A stretch of 64,000 nucleotides of DNA, taken from contig CM026401.1 in NCBI GenBank assembly GCA_014843695.1, positions 29,840,510 through 29,904,509 on the forward strand, written 5' to 3'. This DNA comes from Archivesica marissinica. Its lineage: Eukaryota; Mollusca; Bivalvia; Venerida; Vesicomyidae. Positions 586-35,339 of this stretch are shown one piece after another. The notes under the pieces were generated by a model. That model saw nothing but the letters and a program-made list of their open reading frames with translations. It had not been told where the DNA came from and did no database searches. Numbering within the stretch: position 1 is the first letter of the stretch; each line of letters opens with the position of its first letter. Made by a program: the position numbers and the translations under genes.

Positions 586-1085
586 GCAGTGACTGAGATA
601 GAAAGTAAATTGTATTAAATGAATAATGTTAATTTTACCTTGTAGATAATAAAAGTGCATCAGTTAGTCTTAAACATACTGTTTTATGTTCTTATTCATG
701 AATGTAATATTTTAATATTTATTATTATGCCGAGTTTTATATTGGTTTTAGGAGATTGTATTTTATTCTAATTATCTCAGAGTTTAATTAATAACTGTTA
801 AGACGTGTGATGTATATGTCTTTTATTAATTTGCTTTGCTATTTATTTTATTTATTGTACAAATATTGTACTGCCTTTGAATATGTTTTTATGTAAATAT
901 AGGCGTTTTATCAATTTTTCACAGGAGTTTACTGTAATAGTGAGCTCTAAATGAGCTTTACGGAAGATGACCACGCTTCAGACGATGATCATATATAACA
1001 AATTGTTAAAGTAGAAATGCTGGTCAAAATGTCACAGTTTTTATTATTACCTGAAATAATCATAAAAGCTGTAAGTTGACATAGT
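586..1085. other. AT-rich stretch without recognisable gene
   Basis: AT-rich sequence between the reverse-transcriptase remnant and the first minisatellite. I searched the minus strand for the next PIGA exon, expected to begin with the residues after FIIG, and did not find it. The first part may be the 3' untranslated region of the LINE remnant. Confidence 0.5.
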
Positions 1086-1310
1086 ACCAGTAAGTGGTTA
1101 GTTACCTATTATAAACTGTACGTCTGGTGTACCAGTAAGTGGTTAGTTACCTATTATAAACTGTACGTCTGGTGTACCAGTAAGTGGTTAGTTACCTATT
1201 ATAAACTGTACGTCTGGTGTACCAGTAAGTGGTTAGTTACCTATTATAAACTGTACGTCTGGTGTACCAGTAAGTGGTTAGTTACCTATTATAAACTGTA
1301 CGTCTGGATG
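1086..1310. repeat. 45-bp minisatellite spanning the PIGA exon 5 donor
   Basis: Five nearly identical 45-bp copies. On the minus strand each holds the last 22 exonic bases of exon 5, the donor ATAG/GTAACTAAC, and about 23 intronic bases. Only the copy at 1,266-1,310 is attached to the rest of the exon. Retaining sequence past the first donor gives GGT AAC TAA, a stop two codons on. Confidence 0.93.
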
Positions 1311-1393
1311 CTTAGCACATATCTCGGGTATTATACCTGCCAGGAGGTCCATACCCTTCCTGTAGACCAGTCTACTCACTATCACTATGGTAA
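1286..1393 (-). CDS. PIGA: PIGA exon 5
   Basis: 108 bp, entered at phase 2 (TT completes an Ile codon), encoding [19 protein letters not shown], then [16 protein letters not shown], and leaving at phase 1 before GTAACTAAC. This starts the C-terminal GT-B domain, the UDP-sugar side; vertebrate PIGA reads [12 protein letters not shown] and FIIGGEGP here, so the next exon should begin by completing GGEGP. Both splice sites of this exon are embedded in tandem arrays: a 62-bp repeat covers its acceptor and first 28 bases, and a 45-bp repeat covers its last 22 bases and donor. Confidence 0.93.
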
Positions 1394-4300
1394 CTGGAAA
1401 CAAGAGAGTAGAACAGTAAACACAGGAACCAGTCTACTCACTATCACTATGGTAACTGTAAACAAGAGAGTAGAACAGTAAATACAGGAACCAGTCTACT
1501 CACTATCACTATGGTAACTGGAAACCAGATAGTAGAACAGTAAATACAGGAACCAGTCTACTCACTATCACTATGGTAACTGGAAACCAGATAGTAGAAC
1601 AGTAAATACAGGAACCAGTCTACTCACTATCACTATGGTAACTGGAAACCAGATAGTAGAACAGTAAATACAGGAACCAGTCTACTCACTATCACTATGG
1701 CAACTGTAAACAAGAGAGTAGAACAGTAAATACAAGAACCAGTCTACTCACTATCACTATGGTAACTGGAAACCAGAGAGTAGAACAGTAAATACAAGAA
1801 CCAGTCTAGTCACTATCACTATGGTAACTGTAAACAAGAGAGTAGAACAGTAAACACAGGAACCAGTCTACTCACTATCACTGTGGTAACTGTAAACAGA
1901 GAGTAGAACAGTAAACACAGGAACCAGTCTACTCACTATCACTATGGTAACTGGAAATCAGGTAGTCAAACAGTAAACACAGGAACCAGTCTACTCACTA
2001 TCACTATGGTAACTGGAAATCAGGTAGTCAAACAGTAAACACAGGAACCAGTCTACTCACTATCACTGTGGTAACTGTAAACAAGAGAGTAGAACAGTAA
2101 ACACAGGAACCAGTCTACTCACTATCACTGTGGTAACTGGAAACAAGAGAGTAGAACAGTAAACACAGGAACCAGTCTACTCACTATCACTATGGTAACT
2201 GGAAATCAGGTAGTCAAACAGTAAATACAGGAACAAATCTTGCAGATATATTGGGTATATACATACAGTTTACATACATCAGATATAAAAAGGTATGCAC
2301 ACTTTTATCTGGCTGTCTCTTGGACGGATCAGGATGGAACATGGTGGAATCAACAGCATTCGGTATTACAGACACCAGGTCCGGTTTGATACATGCCCGT
2401 AACACTGTATTTTCTTTACTGAAATAATAAAACACATGTCCAACATTCAATAAAGATAATTATCCACGTGGATTGTGGAATCCAGGTGTAATAGGAAATA
2501 TATTGTTACTACAAATGTTCAAAGTGGAAATAAATGTGCATAAACTAAACAAATGTTCGAGAAGGTGTAATTAAGAGTGGTTAAGGTCATTCACTTCAAA
2601 ACATTTTGTTTTGAAAATTTCTAATGCGGCGCAATTCGTGTTGAAACGAGCGTGTTAGATGGTTTTTTATATGAAGAATAATCATAATCCAATCAGAACG
2701 CTCGTTTCAACGCGAATTGCGCCGCTTTAGAAATGTTCAAAACAAATTGAAAATGCTACGAAATCTCTTTTTGACGTACATTTTTGCTGAATAAACCTAC
2801 ACGTTAGTGGAAACACATTTTATTGATAATGTTATTCACAGTTAAAACTCTCCCGTTGAAGATTTTTTTTTGTTGCTGACAGAACCCGTGTCCTAGTATG
2901 GAAATGTGACCTGCTATGGCCAATGTATGTGGCAATTGTTTGCAAAGTATACATGCATGCAGCTTAAAGTTGTATTTTATTTGAAGAACAATATAAAGAC
3001 TCGGGATAGGCGTTATATTTGGACAGCTTTGTACAAAATTGTTTCAGATAGGGCCATTTTACTGATCGATGCGAAAGAAATCTGACATCCAACAGAGTAG
3101 AATCCCTGTACTTAAATATATACTAGTACCCCCAAACGTGCTGAATCCCTGTGACACAGATAGTATGACTACAGTTAGGTAGGGAGTGGATATGTTACTG
3201 TGCATGTGATACACAGATAGCATGACTACAGTTAGGCAAGGAGTGGATACGTTACCTTGTATGTGATACACAGATAGCATGACTACAGTTAGGCAAGGAG
3301 TGGATATGTTACCTTGTATGTGATACACAGATAGCATGACTACAGTTAGGCAAGGAGTGGATACGTTACCTTGTATGTGATACACAGATAGCATGACTAC
3401 AGTTAGGCAAGGAGTAGATACGTTACCTTGTATGTGATACACAGATAGCATGACTACAGTTAGGCAAGGAGTGGATATGTTACCTTGTATGTGATACACA
3501 GATAGCATGACTACAGTTAGGCAAGGAGTGGATATGTTACCTTGTATGTGATACACAGATAGCATGACTACAGTTAGGCAAGGAGTAGATACGTTACCTT
3601 GTATGTGATACACAGATAGCATGACAACAGTCAGCTAAGGAGAACTTGAGCAATTTGTTTGTGAGTATTGAACTGGCATCAGCAAATCCGAACAAAGAAT
3701 GGTCAGTGAAAACTGTCTTTAAACCCATATTACGAGCATGGAACATTGCCTCATGGGCCATCGTTGAAAATGCCTGAAAAAAAAGGTCGTAATAGATTAC
3801 GTAAACCTACCTGTAACTAACACAACAAACAAAAAGTGCATGTAAACTGTATGTAAACAGATCTTAAAACACTAACTCAATATAAATACATTATAGTACA
3901 ATATGGCGGCAGTATCAGTAAAAATATGATCCATATAAAATTCAGGGGCCTTCATGGCCGAATGGTATAAATGTTGGTATCGAATCACTTGCCCCTCACA
4001 TATGTAGGTTTGAATCCCACTCGGCCCTGAGGATGCTAGGAAGCTGGATGCTGTAGGTTGGTGGTTCTAACCTGGATGTCCGCTGGGCCTAAAACACGGC
4101 TCGGTTGTGCACCCGGGGTCTTCCTCCCCCAATAACAGCTGGAAGGACAATCTGCTTTCGTTAACCAACAATACAATCGTTATAATCTTAAATCAAAGTT
4201 TAGATGTTAAAACATGTACAGTCAAACCTGTCTTTAGCAGCCAGCCAAGGGAGTGGTAAAAATTGGCTGCTTAACACAGGTGGCTGCTTAATTGAGGTTA

Positions 4301-7300
4301 AGTGCTGAACCAATTGCCATAGTTGGAGTTTGGTTACTGGTTGCTTAATAGAGGTTGGCTGCTTCATAGAGGTGACCGCAAACACAGGTTTGATTGTACA
4401 TAGCTGATTTCATCAAATTTTACCCACATGTGAAATTAATTAAAATAAATCTTTCAAACGTGAAGGGTACAACTAAGGACACATACGGTAGGACCATTTT
4501 GTCATGACATCCTTGGGACAGTGAGACATTCTGTCATGACATCCTTGGAGCAGTGGGACATTCTGTCATGACTTCCTTGGGACAGTGAGACATTCTGTCA
4601 TGACATCCTTGGGACAGTGAGACATTCTGTCATGACATCCTTGGGACAGTGAGACATTCTGTCATGACATCCTTGGGACAGTGGGACATTCTGTCATGAC
4701 ATCCTTGGGACAGTGAGACATTCTGTCATGACATCCTTGGGACAGTGGGACATTCTGTCATGACATCCTTGGAGCAGTGGGACATTCTGTCATGACTTCC
4801 TTGGGACAGTGAGACATTCTGTCATGACATCCTTGGGACAGTGAGACATTCTGTCATGACATCCTTGGGACAGTGGGACATTCTGTCATGACATCCTTGG
4901 GACAGTGAGACATTCTGTCATGACATCCTTGGGACAGTGAGACATTCTGTCATGACATCCTTGGGACAGTGAGACATTCTGTCATGACATCCTTGGGACA
5001 GTGGGACATTCTGTCATGACATCCTTGGGACAGTGAGACATTCTGCATGACATCCTTGGGACAGTGGGACATTCTGTCATGACATCCTTGGGACAGTGAG
5101 ACATTCTGTCATGACATCCTTGGGACAGTGAGACATTCTGTCATGACATCCTTGGGACAGTGAGACATTCTGTCATGACATCCTTGGGACAGTGAGACAT
5201 TCTGTCATGACATCCTTGGGACAGTGGGACATTCTGTCATGACATCCTTGGGACAGTGGGACATTCTGTCATGACATCCTTGGGACAGTGGGACATTCTG
5301 TCATGACATCCTTGGGACAGTGAGACATTCTGTCATGACATCCTTGGGACAGTGAGACATTCTGTCATGACTTCCTTGGGACAGTGAGACATTCTGCCAT
5401 GACTTCCTTGGGACAGTGGGACATTCTGTCATGACATCCTTGGGACAGTGAGACATTCTGTCATGACATCCTTGGGACAGTGAGACATTCTGTCATGACA
5501 TCCTTGGGACAGTGAGACATTCTGTCATGACATCCTTGGGACAGTGAGACATTCTGTCATGACTTCCTTGGGACAGTGAGACATTCTGTCATGACTTCCT
5601 TGGGACAGTGAGACATTCTGTCATGACTTCCTTGTAGCAGTGAGACATTCTGTCATGACTTCCTTGGAACAGTGAGACATTCTGTCATGACATCCTTGGG
5701 ACAGTGAGACATTCTGTCATGACATCCTTGGGACAGTGGGACATTATGTCATGACATCCTTGGGACAGTGGGACATTCTGTCATGACATCCTTGGGACAG
5801 TGGGACATTCTGTCATGACATCCTTGGAACAGTGGGACATTCTGTCATGACATCCTTGGGACAGTGGGACATTCTGTCATGACATCCTTGGGACAGTGGG
5901 ACATTCTGTCATGACATCTTTGGAACAGTGGGACATTCTGTCATGACATCCTTGGGACAGTGGGACATTCTGTCATGACATCCTTGGGACAGTGGGACAT
6001 TCTGTCATGACATCCTTGGGACAGTGGGACATTCTGTCATGACATCATTGGGACAGTGGGACATTCTGTCATGACATCCTTGGGACAGTGGGACATTCTG
6101 TCATGACATCCTTGGGACAGTGGGACATTCTGTCATGACTTCCTTGGGACAGTGAGACATTCTGTCATGACATCCTTGGAACAGTGGGACATTCTGTCAT
6201 GACATCCTTGGGACAGTGGGACATTCTGTCATGACATCCTTGGAACAGTGGGACATTCTGTCATGACATCCTTGGGACAGTCTGTCATGACATCCTTGGG
6301 ACAGTGGGACATTCTGTCATGACTTCCTTGTAGCAGTGGGACATTCTGTCATGACATCCTTGGAACAGTGGGACATTCTGTCATGACATCCTTGGAACAG
6401 TGAGACATTCTGTCATGACATCCTTGGGACAGTGGGACATTCTGTCATGACATCCTTGGAACAGTGGGACATTCTGTCATGACTTCCTTGGAACAGTGGG
6501 ACATTCTGTCATGACATCCTTGGGACAGTGGGACATTCTGTCATGACATCCTTGGGACAGTGGGACATTCTGTCATGACTTCCTTGGAGCAGTGGGACAT
6601 TCTGTCATGACTTCCTTGGGACAGTGGGACATGATGTCATGACATCCTTGGGACAGTGGGACATTCTGTCATGACTTCCTTGGAACAGTGGGACATTCTG
6701 TCATGACATCCTTGGGACAGTGGGACATTCTGCCATGACATCCTTGGGACAGTGGGACATTATGTCATGACATCCTTGGGACAGTGGGTCATTCTGTCAT
6801 GACATCCTTGGGACAGTGGGACATTCTGCCATGACATCCTTGGGACAGTGGGACATTCTGCCATGACTTCCTTGGGACAGTGGGACATTCTGCCATGACT
6901 TCCTTGGAACAGTGGGACATTCTGCCATGACTTCCTTGGAACAATGGGACATTCTGTCATGACTTCCTTGGGACATCAGTGGCACACTCTGTCATGAATC
7001 TAATTTGCAACAATGAGTAAGGTGCTAACTAACTTACCGAATGGCCATGAACAATGGTTATTCTCTCTCGTATAAATATGTTCCTGAGTAGAGGAAATGT
7101 AGTGAGTATGGTGGGCAGAACACACTGGTTGTACATCGTCGGGAAGGGGAGATAATATACCTAGAAGTACATAAAACATGGTTACAGATAATATACCTGG
7201 AAGTTCATAAAACATGGTTACAGACAATATACCTAGAAGTACATCAAACATGGTTACAGACAATATACCTAGAAGTAAATCAAACATGGTTACAGACAAT

Positions 7301-8630
7301 ATACCTAGAAGTACATAAAACATGGTTACAGACAATATACCTAGAAGTAAATCAAACATGGTTACAGATAATATACCTAGAAGTACATAAAACATGGTTA
7401 CAGACAATATACCTAGAAGTAAATTAATTTGATTTAAACATGGTTACAGACAATATACCTTGAAGTAAATCAAACATGGTTACAGGCAGTATACCTAGAA
7501 GTACATAAAACATGGTTACAGACAATATACCTAGAAGTAAATCAAACATGGCTACAGACAATATACCTAGAAGTACATAAAACATGGTTACGGACAATAT
7601 ACCTAGAAGTAAATCAAACATGGTTACAGACAATATACCTAGAAGTAAATCAAACATGGTTACAGATAATATACCTAGAAGTACATAAAACATGGTTACA
7701 GACAATATACCTAGAAGTACATCAAACATGGTTACAGATAATATACATAGAAGTACATAAAGCATGGTTACAGACAATATACCTAGAAGTAAATCAAACA
7801 TGGTTACAGATAATATACCTAGAAGTACATAAAACATGGTTACAGACAATATACCTAGAAGTAAATCAAACATGGTTACAGACAATATACCTAGAAGTAC
7901 ATCAAACATGGTTACAGACAATATACTCTAGAAGTAAATCAAACATGGTTACAGACAATATACCTAGAAGTAAATCAAACATGGTTACAGACAATATACT
8001 CTAGAAGTAAATCAAACATGGTTACAGACAATATACAAAGAACTAAATCAAACATGGTTTCAAACAATATACCTTGAAGTAAATCAAACATGGCTACAGA
8101 CAAAATACAAGGAATTAAATCCAACATGCTTCCTCAGAATCATATAGAATGCATATATATATACATAACACTTTCACTCAATATGTAACAGAAGGCTGTA
8201 GAGCGCAATCGGTTAAACGTTGAACTATCATGCTGGAGGTCAGGGTTCGATTCTACAAGAAACTGTTTCATATTGACATTAGATTTGTAATTATGATTGA
8301 TATTTAATTAGATAAATCAATGCATGAACAATTGTTTCGGAGAGGATGCCCCTAGACAAGGCTTACACACTTGGTGCTCGATTCCATGCCCCCTCCCAAA
8401 TACGGAATCCACACCCGCAATATCCCAAACAGAAATACTGACAAATTGAAAGTGATCTACAGTATGTTATTACCTTGAGTCCATTATCGAGGTAGCGCAC
8501 ACCTTTTCGGTTACCATAGAAATGCGTGACAACAATCACTTTGTGGCCTCTGTTGATGAGGCACTGTGACAGATGGTAGATATGACTCTCCACGCCACCC
8601 TGGTTCGGGTAGAAAAAGTCTGACACCATA
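1286..8630 (-). CDS. PIGA: PIGA homologue, internal part of gene (five exons)
   Basis: PIGA is the catalytic subunit of the GPI-N-acetylglucosaminyltransferase complex in the ER membrane. It transfers GlcNAc from UDP-GlcNAc to phosphatidylinositol, the first step of GPI-anchor synthesis, and belongs to glycosyltransferase family GT4. Five exons join at 8630-8474, 7160-7038, 3773-3598, 2418-2303 and 1393-1286 (157, 123, 176, 116 and 108 bp), giving about 226 codons without a stop. All phases match: 0, 0, 2, 1, and 1 at the end. Blocks seen in order are [62 protein letters not shown] and [14 protein letters not shown], all close to my recollection of vertebrate PIGA. The N-terminal codons before MVSDFF and everything after FIIG are missing: the former lies further right or was not found, the latter left of the window. 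The introns (1,313, 3,264, 1,179 and 909 bp) are mostly minisatellite. No lesion is seen in the exons, so I take it as a functional gene. Confidence 0.93.
1366..2228. repeat. 62-bp minisatellite spanning the PIGA exon 5 acceptor
   Basis: About 14 copies of a 62-bp unit with few substitutions and one short indel. On the minus strand each copy contains a pyrimidine-rich stretch, TTTACAG or TTTCCAG, and the first 28 bases of exon 5. It makes up nearly all of the 909-bp intron. Because 62 is not a multiple of three, use of an adjacent upstream acceptor would shift the frame. Confidence 0.93.
2303..2418 (-). CDS. PIGA: PIGA exon 4
   Basis: 116 bp, starting with the T that completes a Ser codon (AG joined to T), then [30 protein letters not shown] and [16 protein letters not shown] and SVIPNAVD are signature blocks of PIGA, and the second corresponds to the IPNGVD-type motif common in GT4 enzymes. 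The acceptor is TTATTATTTCAG. The donor is AAAA followed by GTGTGC, weaker than the others but forced by frame: joining to exon 5 gives [10 protein letters not shown]. Confidence 0.93.
2596..2757. mobile_element. Palindromic MITE-like element in PIGA intron
   Basis: Two inverted arms of about 50 bases, 2,605-2,655 and 2,696-2,745, share TTGAAACGAGCG and GCGGCGCAATTCG in opposite orientation around a roughly 40-base loop. It lies in the intron between PIGA exons 3 and 4. No transposase is visible, and I could not fix a target duplication. Confidence 0.65.
2838..3153. mobile_element. Truncated CACAGGG-terminus element
   Basis: The body and right end are nearly identical to the complete element at 50,803-51,214, including the right terminal CCGAATCCCTGTG motif (here with one change). 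The left terminal repeat is absent. It lies in the PIGA intron and its right end abuts the outermost unit of the 57-bp exon 3 donor array. Confidence 0.8.
3154..3640. repeat. 57-bp minisatellite spanning the PIGA exon 3 donor
   Basis: About nine units at 57-bp spacing (CATGAC cores at 3,221, 3,278, 3,335 and so on to 3,620). On the minus strand each contains a copy of the end of exon 3 and the donor CACATACAAG/GTAACG. The copy at 3,598-3,640 is the real exon end. An open frame over the array encodes a 19-residue repeat but is out of phase with PIGA and not taken as a gene. Confidence 0.93.
3598..3773 (-). CDS. PIGA: PIGA exon 3
   Basis: 176 bp, entered at phase 0 after a long T tract and CAG, leaving at phase 2 (ACA AG, then GTAACG). 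It encodes [44 protein letters not shown] and [10 protein letters not shown]. This is the part of the family that carries the HSLFGFAD block near the acceptor-substrate site. The last 30 or so exonic bases plus the donor are repeated about eight times downstream in the intron as a 57-bp array. Reading past the true donor gives an immediate TAA. Confidence 0.93.
3943..4195 (+). mobile_element. SINE-E, tRNA-derived
   Basis: The head resembles a tRNA with A-box-like GGCCGAATGGTATAAATG and B-box-like GGTTTGAATCCCACTC. The body contains AGCTGG and GGTGGTTCTAACC blocks and a CGGGGTCTTCCTCC block that recur in the copy at 62,110 and the tail at 54,905. It lies in the PIGA intron between exons 2 and 3, antisense to the gene. 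Confidence 0.75.
4218..4400. mobile_element. MITE with ACAGTCAAACCTG terminal inverted repeats
   Basis: Begins ACAGTCAAACCTG and ends with the complement-like CAGGTTTGATTGT. The interior is built of imperfect GGCTGCTTAA repeats in both orientations. A second copy lies at 43,765-43,946 and a partial one near 28,440-28,600. Confidence 0.75.
4497..6990. repeat. 32-bp minisatellite in PIGA intron 2-3
   Basis: Close to 78 copies of a 32-bp unit with core TTCTGTCATGACATCCTTGG and variants (CTTCC for CATCC, AACAG for GACAG). Purine/pyrimidine balance differs between strands. It ends about 45 bp from the exon 2 donor but does not include it, so unlike the neighbouring arrays it is not junction-spanning. 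Confidence 0.95.
7038..7160 (-). CDS. PIGA: PIGA exon 2
   Basis: 123 bp, 41 codons, phase 0 at both ends. The product begins [12 protein letters not shown] and ends [11 protein letters not shown], matching the PIGA segment that in vertebrates reads YYLP..MYNQ and ends IIHSHS. The donor is TCG followed by GTAAGTT, a strong site. The acceptor is TACTTCTAG before GTATATTATC. The first 11 exonic bases and the acceptor are also the core of the 36-bp tandem array that fills the upstream intron, so this acceptor is the last of about 26 near-identical copies. Confidence 0.92.
7141..8110. repeat. 36-bp minisatellite spanning the PIGA exon 2 acceptor
   Basis: About 26 copies of a 36-bp unit, interrupted near 7,421 by a short AT insertion and degenerating after 7,925. 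On the minus strand each unit carries TACTTCTAG/GTATATTATCTG: the acceptor and first 11 bases of exon 2. Use of an upstream copy would read GTA TAT TAT CTG TAA and terminate translation. The long open frames over the array are repeat artefacts. Confidence 0.93.
8190..8265 (+). repeat. tRNA-like segment, possible SINE head
   Basis: An A-box-like TGTAGAGCGCAATCGG is followed about 35 bases later by B-box-like GGGTTCGATTCT. Surrounding sequence does not fold into a convincing tRNA. It is probably the head of a degenerate SINE in the first visible PIGA intron. Confidence 0.35.
8474..8630 (-). CDS. PIGA: PIGA exon 1 of those visible (N-terminal PIGA domain)
   Basis: 157 bp, entered at phase 1 (one base T, then ATG). 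The acceptor reads TTGTTTTGCAG directly before it, and the donor is AAG followed by GTAATA. It encodes [16 protein letters not shown], then a helix with [12 protein letters not shown], then [14 protein letters not shown] and DNGLK. These are the first beta strand and the glycine loop of the GT-B N-terminal domain, including the family's GGVE motif. The Met is internal: in animal PIGA the residues before it (normally HNIC) come from an upstream exon that I could not find. A short SINE-A tail fragment lies just upstream in the intron. Confidence 0.93.
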
Positions 8631-8690: not shown

Positions 8691-8724
8691 ATATGGGAGT
8701 ATAGTATCCAATATAAGTAACAGA

Positions 8725-11163
8725 GAGAATATGCATCCATACACTATCACATACCGAGAGAATATGCATCCATACACTATCACATACCGAGAGAATATGC
8801 ATCCATACACTCACATACCGAGAGAATATGCATCCATACACTATCACATACCGAGAGAATATGCATCCGTACACTATCACATACAGAGAGAATATGCATC
8901 CATACACTATCACATACAGAGAGAATATGCATCCGTACACTCACATACCGAGAGAATATGCATCTATACACTCACATACCGAGAGAATATGCATCCGTAC
9001 ACTATCACATACAGAGAGANNNNNNNNNNNNNNNNNNNNNNNNNNNNNNNNNNNNNNNNNNNNNNNNNNNNNNNNNNNNNNNNNNNNNNNNNNNNNNNNN
9101 NNNNNNNNNNNNNNNNNNNNNNNNNNNNNNNNNNNNNNNNNNNNNNNNNNNNNNNNNNNNNNNNNNNNNNNNNNNNNNNNNNNNNNNNNNNNNNNNNNNN
9201 NNNNNNNNNNNNNNNNNNNNNNNNNNNNNNNNNNNNNNNNNNNNNNNNNNNNNNNNNNNNNNNNNNNNNNNNNNNNNNNNNNNNNNNNNNNNNNNNNNNN
9301 NNNNNNNNNNNNNNNNNNNNNNNNNNNNNNNNNNNNNNNNNNNNNNNNNNNNNNNNNNNNNNNNNNNNNNNNNNNNNNNNNNNNNNNNNNNNNNNNNNNN
9401 NNNNNNNNNNNNNNNNNNNNNNNNNNNNNNNNNNNNNNNNNNNNNNNNNNNNNNNNNNNNNNNNNNNNNNNNNNNNNNNNNNNNNNNNNNNNNNNNNNNN
9501 NNNNNNNNNNNNNNNNNNNNNNNNNNNNNNNNNNNNNNNNNNNNNNNNNNNNNNNNNNNNNNNNNNNNNNNNNNNNNNNNNNNNNNNNNNNNNNNNNNNN
9601 NNNNNNNNNNNNNNNNNNNNNNNNNNNNNNNNNNNNNNNNNNNNNNNNNNNNNNNNNNNNNNNNNNNNNNNNNNNNNNNNNNNNNNNNNNNNNNNNNNNN
9701 NNNNNNNNNNNNNNNNNNNNNNNNNNNNNNNNNNNNNNNNNNNNNNNNNNNNNNNNNNNNNNNNNNNNNNNNNNNNNNNNNNNNNNNNNNNNNNNNNNNN
9801 NNNNNNNNNNNNNNNNNNNNNNNNNNNNNNNNNNNNNNNNNNNNNNNNNNNNNNNNNNNNNNNNNNNNNNNNNNNNNNNNNNNNNNNNNNNNNNNNNNNN
9901 NNNNNNNNNNNNNNNNNNNNNNNNNNNNNNNNNNNNNNNNNNNNNNNNNNNNNNNNNNNNNNNNNNNNNNNNNNNNNNNNNNNNNNNNNNNNNNNNNNNN
10001 NNNNNNNNNNNNNNNNNNNCACATACCGAGAGAATATGCATCTATACACTATCACATACCGAGAGAATATGCATCCATACACTCACATACCGAGAGAATA
10101 TGCATCTATACACTATCACATACCGAGAGAATATGCATCTATACACTATCACATACCGAGAGAATATGCATCCATACACTCACATACCGAGAGAATATGC
10201 ATCCGTACACTATCACATACCGAGAGAATATGCAGCCATACACTATCACATACAGAGAGAATATGCATCCGTACACTATCACATACAGAGAGAATATGCA
10301 TCCGTACACTATCACATACAGAGAGAATATGCATCCGTACACTATCACATACCGAGAGAATATGCATCCGTACACTATCACATACCGAGAGAATATGCAT
10401 CCATACACTCACATACAGAGAGAATATGCATCCGTACACTATCACATACAGAGAGAATATGCATCCGTACACTATCACATACAGAGAGAATATGCATCCA
10501 TACACTATCACATACAGAGAGAATATGCATCCGTACACTCACATACCGAGAGAATATGCATCTACACTATCACATACCGAGAGAATATGCATCCATACAC
10601 TATCACATACAGAGAGAATATGCATCCATACACTATCACATACAGAGAGAATATGCATCCGTACACTATCACATACCGAGAGAATATGCATCCATACACT
10701 CACATACAGAGAGAATATGCATCCATACACTATCACATACCGAGAGAATATACATCCATACACTATCACATACCGAGAGAATATGCATCCATACACTATC
10801 ACATACCCAGAGAATATGCATCCATACACTCACATACCGAGAGAATATGCATCCATACACTCACATACCGAGAGAATATGCATCTATACACTATCACATA
10901 CAGAGAGAATATGCATCTATACACTATCACATACAGAGAGAATATGCATCTATACACTATCACATACAGAGAGAATATGCATCTATACACTATCACATAC
11001 CCAGAGAATATGCATCCATACACTATCACATACAGAGAGAATATGCATCTATACACTATCACATACCGAGAGAATATGCATCCATACACTCACATACCGA
11101 GAGAATATGCATCCATACACTATCACATACCGAGAGAATATGCATCCGTACACTATCACATAC
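8725..11163. repeat. 30/33-bp minisatellite with internal assembly gap
   Basis: The unit has core CGAGAGAATATGCATCC followed by ATACACTATCAC (33 bp) or ATACACTCAC (30 bp). The two unit lengths alternate irregularly, CCGAG and CAGAG variants are mixed, and a 1,000-N gap sits inside. Long open frames in several phases arise because both unit lengths are multiples of three. Confidence 0.95.
9020..10019. other. Assembly gap (1,000 N)
   Basis: Exactly 1,000 N, flanked on both sides by the same 30/33-bp minisatellite. The round size suggests a placeholder, so the true array length is unknown. Confidence 0.98.
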
Positions 11164-11227
11164 CATCATAAGTGAGTGCTTAAAACATTTTAAAATATTA
11201 AAATATGTTACATGTAAATGGGTTAGT

Positions 11228-11450: not shown

Positions 11451-11525
11451 GTAAATGGTAGTAGGCCCCTATCCATAATTACGTCTTAGAAAGGAAAGCA
11501 CTCTGACACAGAAAATATCTTCAAC

Positions 11526-12228
11526 TTGCACTGGCCGAACATGCAATTTATACTTGCACTGGCCGAACATGCAATTTATACTTGCACTGGCCGAACATGC
11601 AATTTATACTTGCACTGGCCGAACATGCAATTTATACTTGCACTGGCCGAACATGCAATTTATACTTGCACTGGCCGAACATGCAATTTATACTTGCACT
11701 GGCCGAACATGCAATTTATACTTGCACTGGCCGAACATGCAATTTATACTTGCACTGGCCGAACATGCAATTTATACTTGCACTGGCCGAACATGCAATT
11801 TATACTTGCACTGGCCGAACATGCAATTTATACTTGCACTGGCCAAACATGCAATTTATACTTGCACTGGCCAAACATGCAATTTATACTTGCACTGGCC
11901 AACATGCAATTTATACTTGCACTGGCCGAACATGCAATTTATACTTGCACTGGCCGAACATGCAATTTATACTTGCACTGGCCGAACATGCAATTTATAC
12001 TTGCACTGGCCGAACATGCAATTTATACTTGCACTGGCCGAACATGCAATTTATACTTGCACTGGCCGAACATGCAATTTATACTTGCACTGGCCGAACA
12101 TGCAATTTATACTTGCACTGGCCGAACATGCAATTTATACTTGCACTGGCCGAACATGCAATTTATACTTGCACTGGCCGAACATGCAATTTATACTTGC
12201 ACTGGCCGAACATGCAATTTATACTTGT
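11526..12228. repeat. 28-bp minisatellite, almost perfectly homogeneous
   Basis: About 25 copies of a 28-bp unit (core GCACTGGCCGAACATGCAAT) that differ by only two A-for-G changes and one single-base deletion near 11,900. Overlapping long open frames over it are a consequence of the periodicity. Confidence 0.95.
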
Positions 12229-13391: not shown

Positions 13392-13930
13392 ACTGGAAAT
13401 ATATCCACGATCAATGACCTGTGTCACCATTGTTCATGAATCTACAAGTAAGTATCTGACACTGGGACAAGTGATCAACAGTTCCACATGTTTTACGACA
13501 TCCCGACTCACAGACATGATACTCTAGTGACAAAATCATTCATTCCAGTCAGACAATTATTATGTTCCACAACTTATAGAAATCACATGACAGCACTTAC
13601 CAGATATGGTGCCTCATGCTTGGATGATACACCAGTCCTGTCTTGCATCTGTAATCCAGAAAGTAATTATTACATATATACTAATGGATAAAAGAAACTG
13701 TGCACAACAGAAAATGTTACACACAAAAAGATATTTTAGAAGGTAAAAACATAGCGGACAATAAACACTTGGGAAATCATTTTGCATCAAATTTTATCTC
13801 ATGTTTCCCCGAGTGGCACGTGCACTTCGTTTACACACGTGATTTTGAAAATTTAAGAACGGTTCATTATTCACTTGGCTCTAAATATTGTAAAAAACAT
13901 GTTAATTTAAACCTGAATTATGCGTACGTC
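13392..13930. other. Unique sequence flanking transposase
   Basis: No recognisable coding or repeat content. The 3' half may be the left flank of the Tc1-like element. I looked for terminal inverted repeats matching the right flank after 14,925 and saw none convincing. Confidence 0.4.
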
Positions 13931-14924
13931 ATGCCACGGCTTACAGAAATTCAACGTCTTCGCGCCGTGTGTATGCTTGAAACTGGAATGGCCCAAATTG
14001 AAGTTGCCAGACATTTTGGTGTCCATCGAAACACGATAATATCTCTATGGAGACGTTTTCAACAGAATGGAAACACGAGGGACTTGTCTCGGACCGGCCG
14101 TCCACGCGTGACGTCACGTCAGCAAGACAACCGCATTTGACTGACTCATCTCAGAAATCGATTCCAGAGTTCCAGCTTGACCTCTCGGACCATTCCTGGC
14201 CTTCGTCCAATCAGTTCCAGGACTGTACGGAACCGACTGAGGGAGCGCATTATCCGGCCCAGACGGCCTGCAGGCACGTCTTGCCTGGTGCAGACAGCAT
14301 CTACGGTACAGGAGACAAGATTGGGACGGTGTTCTGTTCACTGACGAGTCGAGATTTCACCTGGACTGCTCAGATGGCAGGGCAATGGTGTACAGACGTC
14401 CAGGTGAACGGTATGCTGACGCGTGCGTAGTTCAACGTCGAGCGTTTGGTGGCGGCAGCGTTATGGTATGGGGAGGTATCACATCTCATGGGCGGACCCA
14501 ACTTGTCATTGTGAATGGCAATCTAACAGGACTGCGATACAGGGAAGAAATCATTCGGCCTCATGTGCAAACGTTTATTCAAGGACAAAGACGTAACGTC
14601 ACGTTTCAGCAAGATAATGCCCGTCCACACGTGACTCATGTTGTGACAGACTTCTTGAGACAGCACAACATAGCGGTCCTTCCCTGGCCATCTGTTTCTC
14701 CAGACCTGTCTCCTATCGAGCACGCATGGGATGAAATGGGGCGATGTCTACGTCAGGCCCCGAATCAGTCATTGACGTTAGCTGCTTTGGGACAAATGTT
14801 GGTTGGGATATGGAACAACATTCCACAAGCATGTTCTTATGTTTTGTCATTAGAAAATACCATGCCTGCAGCTGATGCACAGTTCCTTTTTTATCCATTA
14901 GTATATATTCAACGTCACATATAA
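13931..14924 (+). pseudogene. Tc1/mariner-type transposase, inactivated
   Basis: This is a cut-and-paste transposase of the Tc1 group, about 331 codons against a usual length near 340. It begins MPRLTEIQRLRAV with a helix-turn-helix (IEVARHFGVHRNTIISLWRR) and a GRPR hook at residue 55-60. The catalytic domain has LFTDESRFHLD, then GGGSVMVWGGI, FQQDNARPH and SPDLSPIEHAWDE. The spacing from the second Asp to the Glu is 34 residues, so a DD34E triad is present. Two lesions are seen: a nonsense codon (probable CGA to TGA) at 14,138-14,140 after DNRI, and a one-base frameshift near 14,270. The C-terminal half from 14,385 is fully open. No clear terminal inverted repeats were found. Confidence 0.9.
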
Positions 14925-15155: not shown

Positions 15156-16440
15156 GACGTCCTGATTGGCCTACCTAGTGCTCCTGTCCCTCACAGCGTC
15201 CTGATTGGCCTACCTAGTGCTCCTGTCCCTCACAGCGTCCTGATTGGTCTACGTAGTGCTTCTGTCCCTCACAGCGTCCTGATTGGCCTACCTAGTGCTC
15301 CTGTCCCTCACAGCATCCTGATTGGTTTACCTAATGCTCCTGTCCCTCACAGCGTCCTGATTGGCCTACCTAGTGCTCCTGTCCCTCAGTGTCCTGATTG
15401 GTCTATCTAGTGCTCCTGTCCCTCACAGCGTCCTGATTGGTCTATCTAGTGCTCCTGTCCCTCACAGCATCCTGATTGGCCTACCTAGTGCTCCTGTCCC
15501 TCACAGCATCCTGATTGGCCTACCTAGTGCTCCTGTCCTGTACCTTACAGTGTCCTGATTGGCCTACCTAGTGGTCCTGTACATTACAGCATCCTGATTG
15601 GTCTACCTAGTGCTCATGTCCCTCACAGCGTCCTGATTGGCCTACCTAGTGCTCATGTCCCTCACAGCGTCCTGATTGGCCTACCTAGTGCTCCTGTCCC
15701 TCACAGCATCCTGATTGGCCACCTAGTGCTCCTGTACCTTACAGTGTCCTGATTGGCCTACCTAGTGGTCCTGTACATTAACACAGGGATTCGGCACGTT
15801 TGGGGGTACTAGTATATATACTTAAATATATATACTAGTACCCCAAACGTGCCGAATCTCTGTGTACATTACAGCATCCTGATTGGTCTACCTAGTTTCA
15901 TGTCCCTCACAGCATCCTGATTGGTCTATCTAGTGCTCCTGTCCCCCACAGCGTCCTGATTGGCCTATATAGTGCTCCTGTCCCTCACAGCGTCCTGATT
16001 GGCCTACCTAGTGCTCCTGTCCCTCACAGCGTCCTGATTGGCCTACCTAGTGCTCCTGTCCCTCATAGCGTCCTGATTGGTCTACTTAGTACTAATGTCC
16101 CTCACAGCATCCTGATTGGCCTACCTAGTGATCCTGTCCCTCACAGCGTCCTGATTGGCCTACCTAGTGCTCCTGTCCCTCACAGCATCCTGATTGGCCT
16201 ACCTAGTGCTCCTGTCTCTCACAGCGTCCTGATTGGCCTACCTAGTGCTCCTGTCTCTCACAGCGTCCTGATTGGCCTACCTAGTGCTCCTGTCTCTCAC
16301 AGCGTCCTGATTGGCCTACCTAGTACTCCTGTCTATCACAGCATCCTGATTGGCCTACCTAGTGCTCCTGTCTCTCACAGCGTCCTGATTGGCCTACCTA
16401 GTGCTCCTGTCTCTCACAGCGTCCTGATTGGCCTTCCTAA
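15156..16440. repeat. 39-bp minisatellite
   Basis: About 30 units with core CCTGATTGGCCTACCTAGTG followed by CTCCTGTCCCTCACAGC. Each unit carries a splice-acceptor-like CTGTCCCTCACAG on the plus strand. A palindromic MITE is inserted at 15,782-15,864. Short open frames inside reflect the 13-codon period. Confidence 0.95.
15782..15864. mobile_element. CACAGGG MITE inserted in the 39-bp array
   Basis: 83-bp near-perfect palindrome: CACAGGGATTCGGCACG on the left and the complement ending CTCTGTG on the right. It is flanked by TACATTAA and TACATTAC, an 8-bp target duplication with one change, whose sequence is part of the array unit. The 8-bp duplication and terminal form are typical of hAT elements. 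Confidence 0.85.
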
Positions 16441-20132: not shown

Positions 20133-21794
20133 ACAAGATCTTGAATAAAAGCGGCATTAACAGGTCGGAGAGATAATTATTTATAACAATATGGCTAAAA
20201 CAGTTAACGTGAATCTCTTATAATTATTATTGAGTTGGCACACACTTCTATTTACAATTGTGTACCAGTTTATAGTAATGTGTTCCATGAACTGATGTCC
20301 ATCACTAGTACAGTGTGTACCATGAACTGATGTCCAGCACTAGTACAGTGTGTACCATGAACTGATGTCCAGCACTAGTACAGTGTGTACCATGACCTGA
20401 TGTCCACCACTAGTACAGTGTGTACCATGACCTGATGTCCATCACTAGTACAGTGTGTACCATGACCTGATGTCCATCACTAGTACAGTGTGTACCATGA
20501 ACTGATTTCCATCACTGGTACAGTGTGTACCATGAACTGATGTACATCACTGTACAGTGTGTACCATGACCTGATGTCCACCACTAGTACAGTGTGTACC
20601 ATGACCTGATGTCCATCATTAGTACAGTGTGCACCATGACCTGATGTCCATCACTAGTACAGTGTGTACCATGACCTGATGTCCATCACTGGTACAGTAG
20701 TACCATGACCTGATATCCATCGCTAGTACAGTGTGTACCATGACCTGATATCCATCACTAGTACAGTGTGTACCATGAACTGATGTCCATCACTAGTACA
20801 GTGTGTACCATGACCTGATATATATCACTAGTACAGTGTGTACCATGAACTGATGTCCATCACTAGTACAGTGTGTACCATGACCTGATATCCATCACTA
20901 GTACAGTGTGTACCATGAACTGATGTCCATCACTAGTACAGTGTGAACCATGAACAGATGTCCATCACTAGTACAGTGTGTACCATGAACTGATGTCCAT
21001 CACTAGTACAGTGTGTACCATGACCAGATGTCCATCATTAGTACAGTGTGTACCATGAACTGATGTCCATCACTAGTACAGTGTGTACCATGAACTGATG
21101 TCCATCACTGGTACAGTGTGTAACATGAACTGATGTCCATACTAGTACAGTGTGTACCATGACCTGATGTCCATCACTGGTACAGTGTGTACCATGTACT
21201 GATGTCCATCACTAGTACAGTGTGTACCATGACCTGATGTCCATCACTAGTACAGTGTGTACCATGAACTGATGTCCATCACTAGTACAGTGTGTACCAT
21301 GAACTGATGTCCATCACTAGTACAGTGTGTACCATGACCTGATGTCCATCACTGGTACAGTGTGTACCATGTACTGATGTCCATCACTAGTACAGTGTGT
21401 ACCATGACCTGATGTCCATCACTATTACAGTGTGTACCATGAACTGATGTCCATCACTAGTACAGTGTGTACCATGAACTGATGTCCATTACTAGTACAG
21501 TGTGTACCATGACCTGATGTCCATCACTGGTACAGTGTGTACCATGTACTGATGTCCATCACTAGTACAGTGTGTACCATGACCTGATGTCCATCACTAA
21601 TACAGTGTGTACCATGAACTGATGTCCATCACTAGTACAGTGTGTACCATGAACTGATGTCCATCACTAGTACAGTGTGTACCATGACCTGATGTCCATC
21701 ACTAGTACAGTGTGTACCATGACCTGATGTCCATCACTAGTACAGTGTGTACCATGACCTGATGTCCATCACTAGTACAGTGTGTACCATGACC

Positions 21795-22842
21795 GGATCC
21801 GTACTTGGACCCCTGCTTTTCCTAGCCTACATAAACGACCTCCCACAAAACATCAGTTCCAAAGTCCGCATCTTTGCAGATAATACTGCAGTGTATCTAT
21901 CACTGACATCTGCAAATGAATCGGTCACACTCCAACATGATCTTAAGAGATTAGAAGAGTGGGAGTTGGAGTGGAACATGGAATTTAACCCCTCCAAATG
22001 TCAAGTTATCCACGTCACCAGAAGGAAACATCCTATTCCCAGCAAATATAAACTCCATTGAGTCCTACTTGAGTCGGTCACCTCAGCCAAATACCTTGGC
22101 GTGGATATCTCAAACAACCTGTCGTGGGACACCCACATAAAAAGGTCAACAAAGAAAGCAAACCAAACATTAGGATTTCTACGTAGAAACCTCCAGGTCA
22201 AATCTGAACCCCTTAAGACCATGGCTTACCAGATATTAGTGAGACCCCAGCTTGAATATGGCTCCGAGATCTGGTCGCCCCATACCCAAACATTGATAGA
22301 CCAAATTGAAGGTGTACAGCGAAGAGCAGCCCATTGGATAAAGGCTGACTTCTATCGTACCTCTAGTGTTACAGACATGCTACATTCCCTAAATCTACGC
22401 AGACTAGATCAACGGCGTATTGACAATAGGTTATCCCTTATGTATACAATTCATAATGATCTTGTTGCTATTCCCATTGAAAATTACCTAGTTCCCCTCT
22501 CCCGTCCTACTCGCCATTGCCATTCCTTAAGCTATAGGTTAATTACAGCAACTACAGACTACTACAAGTTCTCCTTCTTTCCAAGAACAATCTATCATTG
22601 GAACCACCTCCCTCCTGACATTGTCCATCTCCCTAGCATAGAGCAATTCAATACGGCAGTTTGCCATATTGAACATGCCAGTCCCTAGTTGTTCTGCATA
22701 GCTGCTTTTAAACTTTTACCACAACTTATTTCCATACCTTTTTAAATTATACTTTTAACTACTCATACTTTTAACTTCTTAGCGGTTTTTGACGCGCAAC
22801 ATGTCTACGTCCCCGCGAGGGGTTCGAAATTAAAGGAAGATA
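21795..22842 (+). pseudogene. 5'-truncated LINE, copy 1 (reverse transcriptase C-terminal half)
   Basis: The coding part starts inside the reverse transcriptase at GSVLGPLLFLAYINDLP and runs through the catalytic block FADNTAVY, the NPSKCQV block, YLGVDISNNLSW and the C-terminal LVRPQLEYGSEIWSPH and VQRRAAHWI region to a stop at 22,686-22,688. It is inactive: the second catalytic Asp is Asn, and a TGA interrupts the frame at about 22,059. A 3' untranslated region of about 155 bases ends in a GC-rich hairpin-like segment (GTCCCCGCGAGGGG) and AAGGAAGATAG. It is truncated on the 5' side exactly where the minisatellite unit resumes, and it differs from copy 2 at roughly 1% of positions. Confidence 0.92.
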
Positions 22843-23716
22843 GATGTCCATCACTGGTACAGTGTGTACCATGAACTGATGTCCATCACTAGTACAGTGT
22901 GTACCATGAACTGATGTCCATCACTAGTACATTGTGTACCATGAACTGATGTCCATCACTAGTACAGTGTGTACCATGACCTGATGTCCATCACTAGTAC
23001 AGTGTGTACCATGAACTGATGTCCATCACTAGTACAATGTGTACCATGACCTGATGTCCATCACTAGTACAGTGTGTACCATGACCTGATGTCCATCACT
23101 GGTACAGTGTGTACCATGACCTGATGTCCACCACTAGTACAGTGTGTACCATGAACTGATGTCCATCACTAGTACAGTGTGTACCATGACCTGATGTCCA
23201 TCACTAGTACAGTGTGTACCATGACCTGATGTCCATCACTAGTACAGTGTGTACTATGACCTGATGTCCATCACTAGTACAGTGTGTACCATGACCTGAT
23301 GTCCATCACTAGTACAGTGTGTACCATGAACTGATGTCCATCACTGGTACAGTGTGTACCATGTACTGATGTCCATCACTAGTACAGTATGTACCATGAC
23401 CTGATGTCCATCACTAGTACAGTGTGTACCATGAACTGATGTACATCACTAGTACAATGTGTACCATGAACTGATGTCCATCACTAGTACAGTGTGTACC
23501 ATGAACTGATGTCCATCACTAGTACAGTGTGTACCATGACCTGATATTCATCACTAGTACAGTGTGTACCATGAACTGATGTCCATCACTAGTACAGTGT
23601 GTACCATGAACTGATGTCCATCACTAGTACAGTGTGTACCATGACCTGATGTCCATCACTGGTACAGTGTGTACCATGACCTGATGTCCATCACTAGTAC
23701 AGTGTGTACCATGACC

Positions 23717-24764
23717 GGATCCGTACTTGGACCCCTGCTTTTCCTAGCCTACATAAACGACCTCCCACAAAATATCAGTTCCAAAGTCCGCATCTTTGCA
23801 GATGATACTGCAGTATATCTATCACTGACATCTGCAAATGAATCGGTCACACTCCAAAATGATCTTAAGAGATTAGAAGAGTGGGAGTTGGAGTGGGACA
23901 TGGAATTTAACCCCTCCAAATGTCAAGTTATCCACGTCACCAGAAGGAAACATCCTATTCCCAGCAAATATAAACTCCATGGAGTCCTACTTGAGTCGGT
24001 CACCTCAGCCAAATACCTTGGCGTGGATATCTCAAACAACCTGTCGTGGGACACCCACATAAAAAGGTCAACAAAGAAAGCAAACCAAACATTAGGATTT
24101 CTACGTAGAAACCTCCAGGTCAAATCTGAACCCCTTAAGACCATGGCTTACCAGATATTAGTGAGACCCCAGCTTGAATATGGCTCCGAGATCTGGTCGC
24201 CCCATACCCAAACATTGATAGACCAAATTGAAGGTGTCCAGCGAAGAGCAGCCCGTTGGATAAAGGCTGACTTCTATCGTACCTCTAGTGTTACAGACAT
24301 GCTACATTCCCTAAATCTACGCAGACTAGATCAACGGCGTATTGACAATAGGTTATCCCTTATGTATAAAATTCATAATGATCTTGTTGCTATTCCCATT
24401 GAAAATTACCTAGTTCCCCTCTCCCGTCCTACTCGCCATTGCCATTCCTTAAGCTATAGGTTAATTACAGCAACTACAGACTACTACAAGTTCTCCTTCT
24501 TTCCAAGAACAATCTATCATTGGAACCACCTCCCTCCTGACATTGTCCATCTCTCTACCATAGAGCAATTCAATACGGCAGTTTGCCATATTGAACATGC
24601 CAGTCCCTAGTTGTTCTGCATAGCTGCTTTTAAACTTTTACCACAACTTATTTTCATACCTTTTTAAATTATACTTTTAACTACTCATACTTTTAACTTC
24701 TTAGCGGTTTTTGACGCGCAACCTGTCTACGTCCCCGCGAGGGGTTCGAAATTAAAGGAAGATA
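23717..24764 (+). CDS. 5'-truncated LINE, copy 2 (open reverse transcriptase C-terminal half)
   Basis: Same segment as copy 1 but with an uninterrupted frame to 24,610: GSVLGPLLF, catalytic FADDTAVY, NPSKCQV, YLGVDISNNLSW, LVRPQLEYGSEIW and VQRRAARWI. The arrangement of blocks is that of Jockey/CR1-type non-LTR retrotransposons; the clade is my inference. There is no endonuclease domain and no promoter, and the apparent upstream ATG belongs to the minisatellite, so it is not an autonomous element. Both end junctions with the 35-bp array equal those of copy 1, with an offset of 1,922 bp. Confidence 0.92.
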
Positions 24765-26030
24765 GATGTCCATCACTGGTACAGTGTGTACCATGAACTG
24801 ATGTCCAGCACTAGTACAGTGTGTACCATGAACTGATGTCCAGCACTAGTAGAGTGTGTACCATGACCTGATGTCCATCACTAGTACAGTGTGTACCATG
24901 ACCTGATGTCCATCACTAGTACAGTGTGTACCATGACCTGATGTCCATCACTAGTACAGTGTGTACCATGACCTGATGTCCATCACTGGTACAGTGTGTA
25001 CCATGAACTGATGTCCATCACTAGTACAGTGTGTACTATGACCTGATGTCCATCACTGGTACAGTGTGTACCATGAACTGATGTCCATCACTGGTACAGT
25101 GTGTACCATGAACTGATGTCCATCACTAGTACAGTGTGTACCATGACCTGATGTCCATCACTAGTACAGTGTGTACCATGAACTGATGTCCATCACTAGT
25201 ACAGTGTGTACCATGACCTGATGTCCATCACTAGTACAGTGTGTACCATGAACTGATGTCCATCACTGGTACAGTGTGTACCATGAACTGATGTCCATCA
25301 CTAGTACAGTGTGTACCATGACCTGATGTCCATCACTAGTACAGTGTGTACCATGAACTGATGTCCATCACTAGTACAGTGTGTACCATGAACTGATGTC
25401 CATCACTAGTACAGTGTGTACCATGAACTGATGTCCATCACTAGTACAGTGTGTACCATGACCTGATGTCCATCACTAGTACAGTGTGTACCATGAACTG
25501 ATGTCCATCATCTAGTACAGTGTGTACCATGAACTGATGTCCATCACTAGTACAGTGTGTACCATGAACTGATGTCCATCACTAGTACAGTAGTCTGTAC
25601 CATGAACTGATGTCCATCACTAGTACAGTGTGTACCATGAACTGATGTCCATCACTAGTACAGTAGTACAGTGTGTACCATGAACTGAAGTAAGTAGTAC
25701 AGGTGTAGATGTCCATCACTAGTACAGTAGTACAGTGTGTACCATGAACTGATGTCCATCACTAATACAGTAGTACAGTGTGTACCATGACCTGATGTCC
25801 ATCACTAGTACAGTAGTACAGTGTGTACCATGACCTGATGTCCATCACTAGTACAGTAGTACAGTGTGTACCATGAACTGATGTCCATCACTAGTACAGT
25901 AGTACAGTGTGTACCATGAGCTGATGTCCATCACTAGTACAGTGTGTACCATGACCTGATGTCCATCACTAGTACAGTGTGTACCATGACCTGATGTCCA
26001 TCACTAGTACAATGTGTACCATGAACTGAT

Positions 26031-26439
26031 ATCAATCACTTATTTCGATCAAAAGATTATACAAACCACGTACAATACAAACGGAATCATCTCTACAAGT
26101 GGGCTTTATATCGTCTCTTGTTGAAAAATGTTAATATAAAGTACATTCCATTCTACAAATAATCAATTATCTGTGGGTAAATTCAATTATCCTATCGAGA
26201 ACTTCAAATTTATTGTATGCATTCTGAACACATATCATATGTCAGAAACCACAACGGAGTAATGAAGGACCAGGGGTGTCTAGTAAGGACAACACAAAGG
26301 GCATTATCCTATCCATATATTAAAAAGAGCCATACACTCTGTAGCAGTTTGAGTTAATACAAAATCTACACTGTATAAGTGTAGACTATTAGATTTGATA
26401 AAGTGATTTAGTAAACACTAACACTAATTGACTATTAAA
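26031..26439. other. Unique AT-rich stretch
   Basis: No gene or repeat family recognised. Confidence 0.4.
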
Positions 26440-34384: not shown

Positions 34385-35068
34385 TTACTGTGAGTAGCAT
34401 TGTGTGACTTGAAAGACACGGTGAGTAGCATTTTGTGACTTGGAAGACACGGTGAGTAGCATTGTGTGATTTGGAAGACACGGTGAGTAGCATTGTGTGA
34501 TTTGGAAGACACGGTGAGTAGCATTGTGTGACTTGGAAGACACGGTGAGTAGCATTGTGTGATTTGGAAGACACGGTGAGTAGCATTGTGTGACTTGGAA
34601 GACACGGTGAGTAGCATTGTGTGATTTGGAAGACACGGTGAGTAGCATTGTGTAACTTGGAAGACACGGTGAGTAGCATTGTGTGATTTGGAAGACACGG
34701 TGAGTAGCATTGTGTGACTTGGAAGACACGGTGAGTAGCATTGTGTGATTTGGAAGACACGGTGAGTAGCATTGTGTAACTTGGAAGACACGGTGAGTAG
34801 CATTGTGTGATTTGGAAGACACGGTGAGTAGCATTGTGTGACTTGGAAGACACGGTGAGTAGCATTGTGTGATGTGGAAGACACGGTGAGTAGCATTGTG
34901 TGATTTGGAAGACACGGTGAGTAGCATTGTGTGACTTGGAAGACACGGTGAGTAGCATTGTGTGACTTGGAAGACACGATGAGTAGCATTGTGTGACTTG
35001 GAAGACACGGTGAGTAGCATTGTGTGATTTGGAAGACACGGTGAGTAGCATGTTGTGACTTGGAAGAC
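34385..35068. repeat. 31-bp minisatellite with GTGAGT in every unit
   Basis: 22 copies with core GACACGGTGAGTAGCATTGT then GTGATTTGGAA. Each unit carries a consensus-quality donor (CACG/GTGAGT) on the plus strand. I found no exon that these would serve. Minus-strand open frames are artefacts. Confidence 0.95.
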
Positions 35069-35339
35069 AGTGGGGGTAATTTGGTGCAAATTTGCGCAAA
35101 GACACGCTGATATACAGACACTACTTCACAACCTGTACGCCGTCTCGGTGACTCAAAATTAAAGGCTGGGGTAGAACGCGTGATTTTGATGTAGGTGGGA
35201 GGGGGGTGGGGTATTATTTATTACTATATGTAATGAAGCATAACTTGTCAAATGTTGCTGATGTTGAGTAGCATGACAGAAAGCCTTTACGGTGATAGTA
35301 GTAAATGGATTCTATTAAGTTGAATTTCTTAGGGAAAAA

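Follow-up and report, generated by a model that had tools for sequence, protein, structure and literature searches.

Four of the 11 exon-intron junctions visible in a clam PIGA gene, two donors and two acceptors, lie within tandem arrays in which every repeat unit joins 11 to 45 nt of exon to 12 to 34 nt of intron across the splice site. Our preferred reading, to which we assign a probability of roughly 0.68, is that these are four independent minisatellites of the type described in amphioxus as mirages, and that they reflect frequent birth of arrays in place together with tolerance in splicing. The window, by which we mean the whole 64,000-bp stretch of DNA that we analyzed, is rich in tandem repeats, which cover 27,638 bp of it (43%).

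PIGA gene structure

PIGA is a GPI-anchor glycosyltransferase. Its coding exons in the window are as follows, and none was seen in the 64 kb beyond these six.

13601-13617, reverse strand: likely PIGA coding exon 1 (MRHHIC), from a pattern search aimed at short initial exons (one mismatch)
8474-8630, reverse strand: PIGA exon 2 (exon 1 of the earlier note)
7038-7160, reverse strand: PIGA exon 3 (earlier exon 2), arrayed at its acceptor edge, 7160
3598-3773, reverse strand: PIGA exon 4 (earlier exon 3), arrayed at its donor edge, 3598
2303-2418, reverse strand: PIGA exon 5 (earlier exon 4), with no array at either junction
1286-1393, reverse strand: PIGA exon 6 (earlier exon 5), 108 nt, with arrays on the acceptor (1393) and the donor (1286) alike

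Given the likely tiny exon 1, each exon number used here is one higher than in the earlier note. That note had counted four arrayed junctions out of nine; the four hold, while the addition of the likely exon 1 brings the visible junctions to 11. Positions 13601-13617 likely represent an upstream, tiny first coding exon, judging from the six predicted residues, which are identical to the N-terminus of Mactra PIGA (MRHHIC), and from the donor that follows them (CTG/GTAAGT), which has no array.

When joined, the six exons give an open coding sequence of 697 nt with no stop or frameshift, and canonical splice sites are present at 11 of 11 visible edges. The product matches PIGA in Pfam at 2e-45, and the joined exons align to clam PIGA proteins without an insert. 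Among the 120 matches listed for a query padded with X, the closest PIGA was that of Mercenaria mercenaria (96% identity over 226 aa), and the other identities were 89% for a relative denoted P0122, 90% for Mya, 87% for Mactra, and 90% for Dreissena. These matches place the window in a bivalve near Mercenaria, a genus of the order Venerida.

We recognized no second host gene in the 64-kb window using Pfam and inspection of open reading frames by eye. Among 10 window proteins, the Pfam families above cut-off were PIGA, DDE transposase, and reverse transcriptase, and a helix-turn-helix match beside the DDE transposase fell narrowly under the cut-off. We also ordered 283 further open reading frames (38 aa or longer) by composition, and inspection of the first 60 by eye revealed no convincing host exon. 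Rfam (at the gathering threshold) and tRNA scans gave no matches in the window, and a search of other collections for clam contigs via the reverse transcriptase pattern returned 15 and 3 matches, with no relative among them.

Four splice junctions multiplied in tandem

The earlier note had placed four PIGA junctions inside tandem arrays with periods of 36, 57, 62, and 45 bp, and Tandem Repeats Finder recovered all four, with scores of 448-1500.

7150-8128, reverse strand: 36-bp array at the exon 3 acceptor; unit of 25 nt intron plus 11 nt exon; 26.9 copies, 89% match
3154-3642, reverse strand: 57-bp array at the exon 4 donor; unit of 45 nt exon plus 12 nt intron; 8.6 copies, 95% match
1366-2234, reverse strand: 62-bp array at the exon 6 acceptor; unit of 34 nt intron plus 28 nt exon; 14.0 copies, 94% match
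1084-1307, reverse strand: 45-bp array at the exon 6 donor; unit of 22 nt exon plus 23 nt intron; 5.0 copies, 100% match

In all four, the unit combines exonic sequence, the splice site, and intronic sequence, just as had been claimed. Alignments agree with exon overlaps of 22, 28, 45, and 11 nt for the 45-, 62-, 57-, and 36-bp arrays; an automatic estimate, which includes some slack, gave 25, 31, 48, and 13 nt. Exon 6 is flanked by one array on either side. The complete identity of the 45-bp copies fits a recent turnover of that array. A dispersed palindromic repeat adjoins the distal end of the 57-bp array.

We counted a junction copy when it lay within 6-8 mismatches of a 21- to 25-nt probe, so very diverged copies escape the count; for the 36-bp array this procedure found 24 copies, compared with the 26.9 reported by Tandem Repeats Finder. 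With the authentic junction included in each case, AG is kept in 22 of the 24 copies in the 36-bp array and in 14 of 14 in the 62-bp array, and GT is kept in 8 of 8 copies in the 57-bp array and in 5 of 5 in the 45-bp array. Summed over the four arrays, 49 of 51 junction copies retain the splice dinucleotide. Three of the four unit lengths are multiples of 3, which does not amount to a significant frame preference (P of about 0.11, hand calculation).

It had also been stressed that the arrays always extend into the intron and never through the body of the exon. This is true, although it carries no independent information: the copy beside the unique exon sequence is read as exon, and the remainder is intron by definition, so the geometry dictates the outcome.

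Separate origins and the fate of spare copies

The four arrays arose separately, as the earlier note had proposed. Across 24 array units, the highest pairwise similarity score was 21, within the range of maxima from 30 shuffled sets (18-26), and the units are thus no likelier to resemble one another than shuffled sequences are.

The 57-bp array also preserves a hint of its ancestry. Read in the frame of the exon, its copies have Ser at a position where exon 4 itself has Cys. Ser is found at that position in Mercenaria, P0122, and Mactra, and His in Mya and Dreissena, while Cys was present in 0 of 146 motif-matching PIGA proteins (236 fetched). Since the array copies agree with the three relatives that have Ser and differ from the exon, the array is probably an offshoot of exon 4 that split off before the change to Cys.

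A premature stop would result from every one of the 45 canonical spares if it alone were used. The suggestion that a frame-safe copy can still serve is therefore sound for the exon-proximal copy, which alone is safe, and fails for the spares. These copies have first stops in common, and the 45 stops consequently amount to about four independent facts. Even so counted, they imply that splicing in a functional gene has to rely mostly on the proximal copy, and the intact gene together with the amphioxus precedent suggests that the proximal copy may be the only one used. At exon 3, the authentic acceptor would then have to outcompete up to 21 canonical rivals. Within the spares, the columns that hold the splice dinucleotide are no more conserved than the rest (58-98% of all columns show the same or less variation), and we therefore see no sign that selection acts on these copies.

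Placement of arrays at junctions

Three other arrays within PIGA introns served as comparison cases.

4495-6997, no strand assigned: 32-bp array in intron 3 with 78 copies; its nearer end lies 40 bp from the exon 3 donor
8720-11164, no strand assigned: 33-bp array, treated as a single array, in intron 1; stops 89 bp before the exon 2 acceptor
11524-12227, no strand assigned: 28-bp array in intron 1 with 25 copies

We compared the placement of arrays with a null model in which each array was collapsed to one unit and seeded uniformly, with seeds that fell within an exon or across two edges excluded. Seven arrays entered this model, and an 18-bp two-copy row at 4338-4373 was left out. Four of the seven arrays in visible PIGA straddle a junction, compared with 0.68 expected under uniform seeding (P = 0.0023). 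When at least 8 nt were required on either side of the junction, the expectation fell to 0.45 (P = 0.0005). The same null gave 0.85 expected for the five arrays in the span covered by the earlier note (P = 0.0033) and 1.18 expected once interspersed repeats, judged by eye, had been removed (P = 0.018). Placement at junctions thus exceeds chance only moderately, in what is a post hoc comparison on one gene that was noticed for its arrays. For the same reason, and with 43% of the window taken up by arrays, we take the excess in PIGA to be suggestive.

Elsewhere in the window, a strong donor-like site occurs in the array at 34390, beside which no coding exon was seen, and a strong acceptor-like site occurs in the array at 15158.

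How the junction arrays may have formed

Under our preferred reading, a stretch of 36-62 bp that straddles an exon-intron border would duplicate in tandem, in place, and the resulting array would grow through the usual turnover of minisatellites. The exon-proximal copy would remain the working splice site, while the other copies would turn into intron. Selection would remove duplications that lie wholly within exons and tolerate those at borders, since the latter leave the mRNA unchanged. At a high rate of minisatellite birth, borders would be struck like any other tolerated site, and because this DNA makes arrays so often, the junction arrays would mostly represent the border's share of general array birth. 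The spare copies would on this reading be neutral, and the birth rate would be high outside this window as well. Tolerance was one of two explanations originally put forward, and it appears sufficient in itself, given that the exon-proximal copy is predicted to still yield an intact mRNA.

The other, a process linked to the junction itself, is one that we consider unlikely while giving it real weight. Here, arrays would be started preferentially at junctions, either by the word GGTAAC, which is near the 5' splice consensus, or by a splicing-linked lesion. The number of junction matches above the uniform-seeding null agrees with such a process, as does the recurrence of GTAAC. For the k-mer, splice-score, and similarity tests we used 24 units, one per array, having dropped repeats of an already-used unit (8723, 22843, 24765, and 39057), irregular or two-copy arrays (52548 and 63429), and short or secondary Tandem Repeats Finder rows. 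GTAAC, on either strand, is present in 4 of 4 junction units, which was matched in 0 of 3000 random-segment sets and 3 of 1000 shuffles. It is present in 9 of the 24 units and absent from 15; random unique segments gave 1.65 expected (0 of 3000 sets as high), and dinucleotide shuffles gave 3.35 (1 of 1000). GTAAC passes a family-wise test over all 5-mers (z of 5.2, where the 95% null maximum is 4.7), as GGTAAC does over all 6-mers (z of 6.6 versus 5.6). However, the motif was chosen after looking, and the excess is weak in the 20 non-junction units, 5 of which contain GTAAC (1.37 expected; 21 of 3000 random segments and 63 of 1000 shuffles). Likewise, GTAAC lies within 30 nt of all four arrayed junctions and one of the seven others, but at 45 nt it is also found at three of the seven unarrayed junctions. 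GTAAC is not the sole recurring word, either, since ACAGTG is in clearer excess among the non-junction units (5 of 20, with 0.53 expected; 0 of 3000 random segments and 12 of 1000 shuffles) and occurs in none of the junction units. Outside the four junction arrays, donor-like sites are weakly enriched in the units (P = 0.04) and acceptor-like sites show no enrichment (P = 0.38). We therefore regard the GTAAC excess as a lead and not as a result.

The remaining accounts each strike us as very improbable. If the spare sites were used, array length could tune PIGA output through unproductive splicing; the stop produced by every spare canonical copy would suit such a role, and many copies closely resemble the authentic site, making competition plausible. 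Against this stand the small number of independent cases behind those stops, the lack of a selection signal in the splice columns, and the amphioxus mirages, which in the available part of their description apparently leave regular splicing undisturbed (PMC3087553). That assembly produced the arrays, by collapsing, expanding, or misjoining copies, is no easier to accept. A gap of 1000 N within the intron 1 array (9020-10019) does show that the assembly is incomplete there, and exact copy numbers are doubtful as a result, but point variants distinguish the copies within three of the four arrays, the exon-intron join is correct at the working end of each unit, and the 45-bp array, in which the copies are identical, spans only 224 bp and should be within reach of a single read. 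We would also give little credence to decay of the locus into a pseudogene, where junction arrays could accumulate freely: although no more than six exons are in view, their open frame, their canonical edges, and their 96% identity to Mercenaria PIGA all argue against decay.

Relation to known junction repeats

The earlier note knew of no repeated seeding of arrays on authentic junctions of one gene, but this kind of repeat has been published for amphioxus (PMC3087553, PMC3902484). In the parts of these papers available to us, mirages are minisatellite-like tandem repeats that span intron-exon boundaries in Adh3 and in the globins BflGb6 and BflGb9, with units of 10-72 bp in Adh3 and 150-160 bp in the globins, and with lengths that differ between haplotypes; RT-PCR and Adh3 data suggest that they leave regular splicing intact (PMC3087553). 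As far as these descriptions go, the clam PIGA arrays are similar in that all four have a unit that spans the exon-intron boundary, in the minisatellite size range, with 5' and 3' boundaries both hit. Likewise, many copies, though not all, keep AG or GT (49 of 51 in PIGA), and the array sequence is particular to each boundary, pointing to an origin in situ. Normal splicing of the mRNA is a further trait of mirages, one that the open reading frame of PIGA would fit. Mirages are reported to be unstable in length, also somatically, while our comparison for PIGA is of one haplotype. Mirages come from a cephalochordate and the arrays described here from a mollusc, the PIGA of which is nearest to that of Mercenaria (Venerida). 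Because the difference is one of taxon and not of mechanism, we call the PIGA arrays mirage-like. They are also more numerous within the gene than in the two globins: in the available account BflGb6 and BflGb9 have one affected boundary each, whereas PIGA has four, with up to 24 junction copies.

Other systems are more distant. Duplications in lancelet PGBD5 are presented as a mirage case, with troponin C also named as a mirage gene, in the accessible part of PMC3902484, and unlike the PIGA arrays they are imperfect, few in copies (2-7), and cephalochordate. Internal tandem repeats in human segmental duplications, as far as PMC2812944 was available, have units of about 30 bp on average and arise by minisatellite expansion, partly at exon-intron boundaries, with altered gene structure. 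The effect discussed there is that introns newly arise and that exons or introns lengthen, while PIGA has multiplied junctions it already had and is predicted to keep the same mRNA. The Rogers model, in which introns are gained by tandem duplication of AG/GT sites (as cited in the available part of PMC3087553), similarly involves tandem duplication around a splice signal, but PIGA carries no sign of a new intron in a comparison of proteins alone, its exons matching clam proteins. An intronic minisatellite has been described in abalone, and the available part of that description mentions no junction array (PMC6905558). None was found in the available parts of two clam genome papers (PMC11899663 and PMC7831173) or of a paper on earthworm metallothionein (PMC12783039). 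We recognized no further case, molluscan or other, among the matches listed, as judged from titles and the beginnings of abstracts in mostly open-access literature. Within the literature searched, the kind of repeat is already known, and a mollusc gene with four arrayed junctions, set in a window of which arrays make up 43%, seems to be new.

We find it decidedly doubtful that seeding on a GGTAAC core in clam genomes makes junctions hot spots and that clams and amphioxus independently grew introns by multiplying junctions. The arrays nevertheless serve as a warning to gene finders, since any spare copy resembles a real junction. Should mirage-type arrays prove common in clams, they would provide natural constructs with up to 22 similar, canonical splice sites in tandem within a conserved gene, in which the choice of site could be studied directly, and what the available papers describe mainly from amphioxus would become a wider route of intron lengthening and splice-site multiplication.

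Tandem arrays and splice-like sites beyond the PIGA junctions

Judged from the 64-kb window alone, this region is strikingly rich in minisatellites, with 33 merged tandem-repeat intervals totaling 27,638 bp (positions 1-64000) and unit lengths of 26-76 bp in the 24 arrays we tested. ACAGTG, the second recurring word among array units, was present in 5 of the 20 units from outside the four arrays over PIGA splice junctions, against 0.53 expected. Away from those junctions, the unit of array 34390-35069 contains a strong donor-like site (CACG/GTGAGTA), and that of array 15158-16439 a strong acceptor-like site (ctgtccctcacag/CG). From their sequence, these two are possible candidates for junction arrays of unrecognised transcripts; we looked for a coding exon adjoining array 34390-35069 and saw none.

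Dispersed repeats, mobile-element remains and assembly gaps

We also recorded the following features.

3090-3150, 15780-15865 and 35410-35710: dispersed palindromic repeat (CAGGGATTCGGCACGTTTGGGGGTACTAGTATATA with its complement)
9020-10019: run of exactly 1000 N, within the array of 33-bp units in PIGA intron 1
53001-54000: run of exactly 1000 N
13922-14921: DDE_3 transposase remains, upstream of the PIGA start codon
21741-22058 and 22062-22685: ORFs of a first reverse-transcriptase-like stretch
23645-24607: ORF of a second such stretch

One occurrence of the palindromic repeat lies at the end of the array over the PIGA exon 4 donor, one lies within a 39-bp array, and one is tandem in itself (46 bp x 3.8). 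Beside the transposase remains, a helix-turn-helix match fell slightly under the cut-off. Both reverse-transcriptase-like stretches lie within 20279-26040, where each is preceded by an array of a common 35-bp unit and a third array of that unit follows them both. This region looks like a larger duplication in which array and retroelement were copied together.
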